A stretch of 64,000 nucleotides of DNA, from assembly GCF_019599405.1 (NCBI RefSeq), contig NZ_RKLQ01000002.1:186001-250000 (forward strand), written 5' to 3'. A program made the translations under genes and the position numbers. The notes below the pieces were generated by a model. That model worked only from the letters and a program-made list of their open reading frames with translations, was not told the origin of the DNA and ran no database searches. This document shows, one piece after another, positions 37,078 through 42,549 of this stretch. Source of the stretch: Haloarcula salinisoli (GTDB taxonomy: Archaea > Halobacteriota > Halobacteria > Halobacteriales > Haloarculaceae). Position 1 is the stretch's first letter. Each line of letters begins with the position of its first letter.

Positions 37078-37165
37078 TGTGCCCCGTTTACCTGCCACCA
37101 ACTATAGGACTTGTTGCCACGGGCGGGCCACAAGGGGTTTGCCCGTTCCACGGAAACTGCCGGCA

Positions 37166-37354
37166 ATGGCACGTGGCAAACTCGACGTCGACACGCTGTT
37201 GAAGATACTGCTGGTCCTGATCGTGGTCTGGATAGCGCTGGAGGTCGTCGGCGAGGTGCTCGGGCTGTTCGCGTGGCTGCTCGGCCCGCTCCAGCCCCTG
37301 CTCGGAGTCGTGCTGATTATCCTCATCGTCCTCTATCTGACCGGCCGGCTCTGA
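37166..37354 (+). CDS. Small membrane protein, 62 aa
   Basis: MARGKLDVDTLLKILLVLIV and on through VVGEVLGLFAWLLGPLQPLL to the end LIILIVLYLTGRL shows two hydrophobic helices and a short charged N-terminus. It belongs to a small-protein type widespread in haloarchaea without known function. The ATG at 37166 is chosen because the frame upstream encodes a non-haloarchaeal, cysteine-containing sequence. Confidence 0.7.
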   Translation: MARGKLDVDTLLKILLVLIVVWIALEVVGEVLGLFAWLLGPLQPLLGVVLIILIVLYLTGRL

Positions 37355-37446
37355 GCGGAGCCGCCGGCTCGGCGAGGGTCGGGAGACCCACGGCGTCTCC
37401 AGGAACTGAGCGGGCTCTTTTTAGCTTCGCCGCGACTCGCTCCGGT

Positions 37447-37959
37447 GTGTACAGCCTGAACGTCTCGCTCCCGTCGTCTGTCACCCGGCTCGCGGGCCAG
37501 CTGGCCCGGGAGCTCCCCCGGGCGCGGGCCCGACCGCGCGGGGAGCATACCCTCGTCGTCAAGCGCCTCGGCGACGGCGACCACGCGGCCTACGCCCGGC
37601 TCGAGGCCCGCGCTCGCGACGCCGTCCGCGGGACCGCCCCCTTCGAGGTGCGTGTCACCGGCGTCGACTGCTTCGAGACGGCCGAAACCGGCCCCTCGCC
37701 AGTCGTCTACCTGGCCGTCGAGAGTCCGGCGCTACGGGCGCTCCACGGGCGGTTCTGTGACGAGTTCGACCCCGTCGAGGGGATGGAAGGCCTCGACGAC
37801 TACGTCCCCCACGTGACGATTGCTCGGGGCGGCGACCCAGCGGCGGCCCGGCGGCTGGTCGAGCGGGATATCGACCCCGTCACGTGGACCGTCGAGGAAC
37901 TGGTCTTCTTCGACGCCGAACGGGGCCAGCCGGTGAGTCGCGTCTCGCTGCCGGCCTAG
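37447..37959 (+). CDS. 2'-5' RNA ligase-like 2H phosphoesterase, 170 aa
   Basis: Two HxT/L-type motifs about 90 residues apart mark the 2H superfamily: HTLVVKRLG in the first half and HVTIARGG in the second, with the family spacing. Members act as 2'-5' RNA ligases or cyclic phosphodiesterases. The first motif reads H-T-L rather than the commoner HxT, so activity is less certain. The start is the GTG at 37447 (MYSLNVSLPSSV); no ATG is available in frame nearby. Confidence 0.78.
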   Translation: MYSLNVSLPSSVTRLAGQLARELPRARARPRGEHTLVVKRLGDGDHAAYARLEARARDAVRGTAPFEVRVTGVDCFETAETGPSPVVYLAVESPALRALHGRFCDEFDPVEGMEGLDDYVPHVTIARGGDPAAARRLVERDIDPVTWTVEELVFFDAERGQPVSRVSLPA

Positions 37960-38922: not shown

Positions 38923-41900
38923 ATGCGGGAGGCCGACGAGCGCTACTTCGAACGGCTTGAAAGCGAGCTCGATACGGCCATGGATGTCGCCGAACGCGCC
39001 CGCGAGCGCGGTGGCGACCCCAAGCCCGAAGTGGAGATACCGACCGCCCGCGACATGGCCGACCGCGTCGAGAACATCCTCGGCATCGACGGCGTTGCCG
39101 AGCGCGTTCGCGAACTCGAAGGCGAGATGTCCCGCGAGGAGGCCGCCCTCGAACTCGTCGACGACTTCGTCGAGGGCACCGTCGGGGACTACGACACCCG
39201 CGAGGGGAAAGTCGAGGGCGCAGTCCGGACCGCGGTCGCCCTGCTGACGGAGGGCGTCGTCGCGGCCCCCATCGAGGGTATCGACCGCGTCGAACTGCTG
39301 GAGAACGACGACGGCACCGAGTTCATCAACGTCTACTACGCCGGGCCCATCCGCTCGGCGGGTGGGACCGCACAGGCTCTCTCTGTGCTCGTGGCCGACT
39401 ACGCCCGTGCGCTGCTGGGCATCGAGCAGTACCAGGCCCGCGAGGAAGAAATCGGCCGCTACGCCGAGGAGATCGACCTCTACGACAAGGACACCGGCCT
39501 CCAGTACTCGCCCAAGGAGAAGGAGACGAAGTTCATCGCGGAGCACATGCCAATCATGCTGGACGGCGAGGCCACCGGTGACGAGGAGGTCTCGGGCTAT
39601 CGGGACCTCGAACGGGTGGACTCGAACTCCGCCCGCGGCGGGATGTGTCTCGTCCTCGCCGAGGGTATCGCGCTGAAAGCCCCGAAGATTCAGCGCTACA
39701 CGCGGAATCTGGACGAAGTCGACTGGCCGTGGCTCCAGGACCTCATCGACGGGACGATAGGAGAGGACGAGGGGAGCGAGGGCGAGGGGGCGGACTCCGA
39801 CGACGCGAGCGGCGACGCCGCGAGCGAAGGCGAAGAGAGCGACGACGGCGAGGAACGTGCCGGTCCGCCCCGGGTCGAACCGGCCAAGAAGTACCTCCGG
39901 GACCTCATCGCCGGCCGCCCGGTGTTCTCCCATCCCTCGAAATCCGGCGGCTTCCGGCTGCGCTACGGCCGCGCACGGAACCACGGGTTCGCGACGGCGG
40001 GGGTTCACCCGGCGACGATGCATCTGGTCGACGACTTCCTCGCGACGGGCACGCAGATAAAGACCGAGCGGCCCGGCAAGGCCGCCGGCGTCGTCCCCGT
40101 CGACAGCATCGAGGGGCCCACAGTACGGCTCGCGAACGGCGACGTCCGCCGTATCGACGACGTCACGGAGGCCCGCGAGGTCGGCAACGGCGTCGAGAAG
40201 ATTCTGGACCTGGGCGAGTACCTCGTCAACTACGGCGAGTTCGTCGAGAACAACCACCCGCTCGCCCCGGCCTCCTACACCGTCGAGTGGTGGGAGCAGG
40301 ACTTCGAGGCCGCCGGTGCGGACGTCCAGGCGATGCGGGACGACCCCGGCACAGACCTGACAGACCCCAGCGCCGCCGAGGCGCTTTCCTGGGCCAGCGA
40401 CTACGACGCACCGCTGCACCCGAAGTACACCTACCTCTGGCACGACGTGACCATCGAGCAGTTCGGGGCCCTGGCCGACGCCGTCGAGACGGCCGACATC
40501 ACAGCGACTGACGGTGCGGTCATGGAGGACACGACGACGGCCGCCGACGGCGACCTCGTCCTCGAGAACACCGACCTCGTCCGGGAGGCACTCGAACGCC
40601 TGCTCGTCGAACACACCCAGGAGAGCGACCGGCTGGTCGTCTCGGACTGGCTCCCGCTGGTCCGGACGCTTGGCTTCTCGCGGTCCCTGGAACGGGACTG
40701 GACTCTCGAGGACATCTCCGAGCACGCCAAGACCTACGGCGAGCAGGAGGCGGCCGACGCCATCGGCTACGTCGACGACGAACTCGGCGACGAGGCGGGC
40801 CGGAACGCCATCGAGGCGGTCAACGAGATATCCCCCTTCGAGGTCCGCGAGCGTGCCCCCACGCGCATCGGCAATCGGATGGGACGCCCCGAAAAGTCCG
40901 AGAGTCGTGACCTCTCGCCGGCCGTCCACACGCTCTTTCCCATCGGCGAGGCCGGCGGCGCACAGCGGGACGTCGCCGCCGCGACCAAGCACTCGGACTC
41001 GATGACGGAGACGCCGGGCCGCGTCGAGGTCGAGGTGGCGAGACGGCGCTGTCCCGACTGTGGCACCGAGGGCCACGAGGCCCGCTGTCCGGACTGCGAT
41101 TCGCTGGCCGAGACTATCTACGTCTGTCCGGACTGTGAGATGGAGGTCGAGCCCGACGAGTCCGGCCGCGCCGAGTGCGAGCGATGCGAGACGCTCGCCT
41201 CCCCGACCCAGTACACGGAACTCGATATACAGGAGATATACCGCGACGCACTCCAGAGCGCCGAAGAGCGCGAGACGGCCTTCGACACCCTGAAAGCCGT
41301 CAAGGGACTCACCAGCGAGGCCAAACTCCCCGAGCCCATGGAGAAGGGCATCCTCCGGGCGAAACACGACGTCTCGGCGTTCAAGGACGGGACGGTGCGC
41401 TACGACATGACCGACCTGCCCGTCACGGCGCTCAGACCGGCGGAACTCGACGTCGACCCCGACCGGCTGCGCGCGCTGGGCTACGAGACCGACATCCACG
41501 GCGACCCGCTGACGCATCCGGACCAGCTGTTCGAACTCAAGGTCCAGGACATCGTGCTCTCGAACGGCGCGGCCGAACACATGCTCCAGACCGCCGACTT
41601 CGTCGACGACCTGCTGGCGCAGTACTACGGGCTCGACCGGTACTACGAGTTCGACGACCGCGACGACCTGGTCGGCGAGCTCGTCTTCGGGATGGCCCCA
41701 CACACCAGTGCGGCGACAGTTGGGCGAGTTGTCGGATTTACGAGTGCTGCAGTTGGATATGCGCATCCGTACTTTCACGCCGCGAAACGCCGGAATTGCG
41801 ACGGTGATGAAGATTGTGTGATGCTTCTAATGGACGGATTGTTGAATTTCAGTAAATCATACCTTCCTGACAAACGCGGCGGTCGGATGGACGCCCCCCT

Positions 41901-42549
41901 CGTCATGTCCTCTCGCATCGACCCCTCCGAAATCGACGACGAGGCCCACAACATGGACATCATGGAGCGGTACCCCCGCGAGTTCTACGAGGCGACGCGG
42001 GAACTCACCGCCCCCGAGGAAGTCGAGGACATCATGACCATCGCCGAGGAGAACCTCGGGACCGACCGCGAGTACACCGAGTTCCGGCACACCCACGACA
42101 CCACGGATATCGCCGCGGGGCCGGACCTCTCGGCGTACAAGACGCTGGGGTCGATGGAGGAGAAGATGGACGCCCAGTTGCACCTCTCGCGGAAACTGCG
42201 CGCGGTCGTCGAGAGCGACGTGGCCGAACGCATCATCGAGTACCACTTCCTGCCCGACCTCATCGGCAACCTGCGGGCCTTCTCCCGTCAGGAGGTCCGC
42301 TGTCTGGACTGCGGCGAGAAGTACCGGCGGATGCCCCTGACCGGGGACTGCCGGGAGTGTGGCGGCCGGGTGAACCTCACGGTGCACCAGGGCTCGGTCA
42401 ACAAGTACATCGACACCGCGATACGGGTCGCCGACGAGTTCGGGGCCCGGGACTACACCAAACAGCGGCTCCAGATTCTGGAGACGAAAATCGAGTCGGT
42501 GTTCCAGAACGACCACAACAAGCAGTCCGGCATCGCCGACTTCATGTAG
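38923..42549 (+). CDS. polC: DNA polymerase D large (catalytic) subunit DP2, 1208 aa
   Basis: The replicative family-D polymerase subunit. Visible are the N-terminal domain ([20 protein letters not shown]), a haloarchaeal acidic insert at about residues 285-310, zinc modules (CPDC/CPDC/CPDC/CERC around residue 706-755 and CLDC/CREC near 1125-1150), and the active-site segment [13 protein letters not shown] with C959-DGDED964. No intein interrupts that segment, although it is a known intein site. Codons 929-987 (41707-41883) have only about 44% G/C in the third position, in sharp contrast to the rest. The small subunit is encoded at 62243. Confidence 0.97.
   Translation: [1208 protein letters not shown]

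Follow-up and report, generated by a model that had tools for sequence, protein, structure and literature searches.

Why does a gene whose third codon positions are about 90% G or C carry, at its active site, a block in which most codons end in A or T? The question is raised by the polD DP2 gene (DNA polymerase II large subunit) in the window, a 64,000-nucleotide stretch of Haloarcula salinisoli (contig NZ_RKLQ01000002.1, positions 186,001 to 250,000). The gene occupies 38923..42549 on the plus strand and encodes, free of any intein, a product of 1208 amino acids that matches the Pfam PolC_DP2_N, central and catalytic domains as well as DP2 chains in the PDB. A recount confirmed the codon island described in the earlier note at 41707..41883 (plus strand, 177 bases): 33 of its 59 codons have A or T at the third position, compared with 116 of the 1149 codons elsewhere in the gene (10.1%; Fisher p = 1e-16). 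The protein segment is conserved, as had also been claimed, with identical residues in the nearest congeners. Among 155 open reading frames in the window and in another 160 kb of its genome, the island was the strongest dip in GC3 in a true reading frame; the remaining top dips lay close to the 5' ends of open reading frames, and the single stronger dip was that of a wrong-frame open reading frame. A 282-amino-acid frame with a TTG start at 37111-37959, whose first part has a GC3 of 25%, appears to be read in the wrong frame, and a short open reading frame of membrane type begins nearby at ATG 37167.

The island is centered on an intein site. In congeners (Haloarcula in the wide GTDB sense), inteins begin and end exactly between codons N958 and C959 (RRN/CFHPET...GQ/CDGDED), a site that we take to be the published pol-IIa allele. 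At the corresponding point in the window (41796..41797) the 1208-amino-acid frame is continuous, which makes it an empty pol-IIa insertion point. The island is nearly symmetric about it, extending 90 bp upstream of this point and 87 bp downstream; the figure of about 69 bp downstream given earlier starts counting where the DGDED segment ends. DP2 is uninterrupted in 10 of 32 congeneric genomes and carries an intein at N958/C959 in most of the rest, which bears out the proposal that the island surrounds an empty insertion site; most congeners have the intein there. The site is also empty in each of the four nearest congeneric genomes, with no trace of an intein. The pol-IIa inteins of congeners are either minis of ~540 bp or long forms of ~1480-1550 bp. 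Most pol-IIa inteins (L014, L031, L033 and others) end in Gln, where Asn usually precedes the +1 Cys, and a few (G049, G051, G053, G110) end in Asn. The window's own genome hosts a long, possibly endonuclease-bearing intein of 528 amino acids at the MCM-a site (L224, G000:C2:335900-340700), although its DP2 site is empty.

Retrieval of DP2 genes from the family and the class, at one allele per species, placed the island in a much wider setting. The set comprised 88 empty alleles, for which sampling outside the family favors close matches to the window's protein, 44 mini-intein alleles and 50 alleles labeled HEN+ by length alone, i.e., with an intein of sufficient size to contain a homing endonuclease (HEN). 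The dip was present in 75% of the empty, 74% of the long-intein and 34% of the mini-intein alleles, with a mean GC3 difference between island and background of -0.20, -0.17 and -0.07, respectively. The low-GC3 zone is a plateau spanning roughly codons -30 to +30 (~28 codons on each side). Mini-intein alleles of Haloarcula do not dip, which had suggested that the dip is limited to empty alleles; that idea failed on the long-intein alleles and on several minis of other families, which also dip. Close relatives have far fewer codons in common within the island than elsewhere in the gene: codon identity in close pairs was 0.50 for empty, 0.55 for HEN+ and 0.77 for mini-intein alleles, against a background of 0.80-0.85 in all three classes. 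Between genomes, codon choice in the island was alike at 0.46, compared with 0.40 after shuffling. Since this likeness is barely above the shuffled value, the zone is not a conserved element, and a sequence-specific element was ruled out by the low codon identity inside the tract. RNA structure at the island did not exceed chance expectation.

Tract and flanks also differ in ancestry. The best matches to the island DNA are G060 (92%) and G058 (89%), both of another genus, followed by a congener at 83%, and the closest relative of the flanks is L002, from the window's own genus (94%). The flank tree supports the window's genus (100/100) and genus g7 (93/97). The island tree is weakly resolved; it rejects the g7 clade (p-AU 0.001) and does not reject the four-species clade of the window (p 0.27), and the flanks reject a grouping of the window clade with G060/G058 (p 0.0002). 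Recombination at the site is supported because the tract tree conflicts with the flank tree, and the trees support an exchange of the tract between genera, involving the window allele and G060/G058. The comparison of island and gene trees that the earlier note had called for thus revealed conflicting genealogies: intein-free relatives do have AT-rich codons in the island, and the phylogeny of the tract is discordant with that of the gene.

Other intein sites show part of the same pattern. In 30 intein-free MCM genes of the family, the minimum of smoothed GC3 falls at MCM-a, the Walker-A site, with a second near MCM-d/b. Because the lettering of MCM sites differs between papers, an impression that dips track published intein prevalence is not advanced as a claim. 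MCM-a combines a dip with fast silent turnover, as at DP2, and at both sites the excess of silent change is restricted to the neighborhood of the insertion point. The main interior dip of 16 intein-free RIR1 genes lies near the NP/CGEQ site, and PolB has weak dips near PolB-b and PolB-c. No dip was found at PolB-a, PolB-d or several other RIR1 sites, which counts against a homing footprint, as do the roughly one quarter of empty DP2 alleles that lack a dip. One RIR1 gene (L343, G068:C2:1165000-1174500) contains four inteins together, of 434, 465, 372 and 419 amino acids.

The island is probably the footprint of recurrent intein homing at pol-IIa, left in an allele that is now empty and mismatched to the endonuclease target. 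By homology, the HEN carried by the intein would cut empty alleles near N958/C959; successive rounds of cutting and repair, with conversion from diverged templates, would then drive fast silent turnover over ~85 bp on each side in the participating alleles. Turnover and genealogical conflict are observed; cutting, repair and conversion would be their cause. Since third positions are ~90% G/C, faster silent change alone would shift them toward A/T: nearly any silent change would look AT-rich, and an AT-rich donor would be unnecessary. Conversion alone between ordinary GC-rich genomes would not create AT-ending codons, and we infer both the source of the new changes and the resistance of empty alleles. 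Once the HEN has long been lost, turnover would be expected to stop and GC3 to recover, which is consistent with the Haloarcula minis. A scar of the same kind is found class-wide and in at least one other gene; therefore, the silent changes seem to record a contest between the intein endonuclease and its target. Resection followed by cytosine deamination predicts T upstream and A downstream, a polarity that is absent and, if anything, reversed: at fourfold sites of empty alleles in codons -14 to +14, A is more frequent than T immediately upstream of the insertion, and T is more frequent than A on the downstream side. This asymmetry may reflect amino-acid makeup only, and the absence of deamination polarity also counts against the homing footprint.

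A narrower signal sits at the insertion point itself. HEN+ and empty DP2 alleles have most of their differing codons at -3 to +5 (41788..41814, plus strand; CGC CGG AAT / TGC GAC GGT GAT GAA GAT in the window), a putative HEN recognition core. When labels were shuffled within genus, a step that leaves some relatedness, an unselected scan placed the best 9-codon window at -2..+6, with a scan-wide p of 0.0025 that is the floor for 400 shuffles. Several tests were picked after the data had been seen, and the scan run separately at MCM-a is the main repeat; its best window was -6..+2 (p 0.002). At MCM-a codon -4, HEN+ alleles prefer GGT and 21 of 36 empty alleles have GGA; GC content is not the cause there because the HEN+ codon is itself AT-ending. 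The window allele matches long-intein alleles at 2 of 6 diagnostic DP2 codons, and mean core scores out of 6 were 4.64 for HEN+, 4.98 for mini-intein and 3.14 for empty alleles. Of three score thresholds applied to independent pairs on the flank tree, one favored the association (5 of 6, median p 0.002), and the results at thresholds 3 and 4 were nonsignificant. Empty alleles thus differ from occupied ones in the core at both DP2 and MCM-a, as an association only.

Under recurrent homing, the HEN would sort alleles by ~27 bp at its target, so that matching alleles become occupied and mismatched ones stay empty. For this core block alone, a different account is a serious candidate, if somewhat short of an even chance: the intein may carry the flanking bases of its donor along by co-conversion, with empty alleles being in no way resistant. 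Such hitchhiking fits the homogeneity of occupied alleles in the core, minis included, and the core codons of empty alleles, which do not appear to deviate more than other codons of their island. The predominance of one codon among MCM-a empties at -4, in place of a mixture, speaks against it and is not decisive. As explanations of the core, hitchhiking of donor flanks and sorting by the HEN perform about equally well.

Local codon selection would dispense with inteins altogether: rarer A/T-ending codons around the catalytic loop could slow translation or help folding. The dip does lie on the active-site segment and recurs in many genomes, and an effect of this kind needs no fixed codon. However, the Haloarcula minis encode the same protein segment with no dip, several empty alleles also lack it, the genealogy of the island departs from that of the gene, and the contrast between occupied and empty alleles falls right at the insertion point. 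Nor is there a dip at the active-site motif of PolB-a or at the Walker A of AtpA, which resembles that of MCM-a and is intein-free in these genomes; like AtpA, EF-2 has no comparable interior dip. This control is suggestive, not complete, because it covers two genes, both highly expressed. Taken with the rest, it leaves codon selection an unlikely explanation.

Precise intein loss, or a single co-conversion event importing AT-rich foreign DNA into this lineage, is very unlikely despite the discordant genealogy of the tract and the occupied state of most congeners, since the drop is class-wide and common to long-intein alleles, and the best match to the tract, in place of an AT-rich donor, is a GC-rich haloarchaeon with the same dip. 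A search for a plasmid or phage donor of the tract gave no plausible match; one viral DP2 was found, remote and 51% identical, and no donor of foreign base composition emerged. From the scenario of the earlier note, recombination at the site survives through the tree conflict. Its reading of the AT-ending codons as the scar of one lineage finds no support in that form, because most intein-free and most long-intein alleles drop, as do some other intein sites.

The closest precedent for recurrent homing as the source of the island comes from the mobile self-splicing introns of yeast mitochondria, where silent polymorphism is raised within ~70 nt of homing endonuclease sites and is tied to mobility (Repar & Warnecke 2017, PMC5378118); the causes offered there are conversion and horizontal transfer, or mutagenic repair. 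Both systems confine the excess of silent change to the vicinity of the insertion point, and in both the hotspot is absent at comparable nonmobile positions, represented here by few controls (AtpA, EF-2 and PolB-a). In contrast to the within-species single-nucleotide polymorphisms of yeast, our case concerns inteins in archaeal chromosomal genes and class-wide divergence that extends to empty sites. A genus sharing the tract was found here, whereas the yeast study found no donor, and, unlike in that study, occupied and empty alleles can be told apart by a codon block at the insertion. For the same insertion sites in Halobacteria, the available parts of two reports describe a mosaic presence of pol-IIa and MCM (cdc21) inteins in mini and full-size forms (PMC4071816, PMC10643990); these parts cover the inteins, their distribution and resistance at the protein level (proline at MCM-d), with no mention of silent codon change in empty alleles. 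Homing of the Haloferax volcanii polB intein by cutting and conversion depends both on how long the flanking homology is and on the target sequence, according to the portion available of PMC3024317. That portion also cites HENs as tolerating single silent changes, which counts against the homing footprint; several silent changes occur together in the alleles described here. A literature search, with most subscription journals outside its scope, returned no report of such a silent footprint for inteins.

To our knowledge, the response of host-gene sequence to long exposure to homing endonucleases has been little tested outside mitochondria, and the GC-saturated third positions of haloarchaea make such a response visible as a dip. 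We tentatively propose, as a possibility that the present data leave somewhat below even, that homing leaves a lasting silent footprint across an archaeal class, made up of a ~170-bp zone of fast turnover and a ~27-bp core where the sequence of empty alleles departs from the HEN target. If true, the footprint would provide a test for past homing and predict the target cores of endonucleases, so that genome sequence alone could suffice to recognize empty homing sites, the target cores themselves and escape through silent recoding; silent escape would itself be testable in Haloferax. It would also be a natural analog of the alleles that confer resistance to gene drives. Finally, short tracts of core replication genes would cross genera at these sites, which would bear on trees built from those genes.
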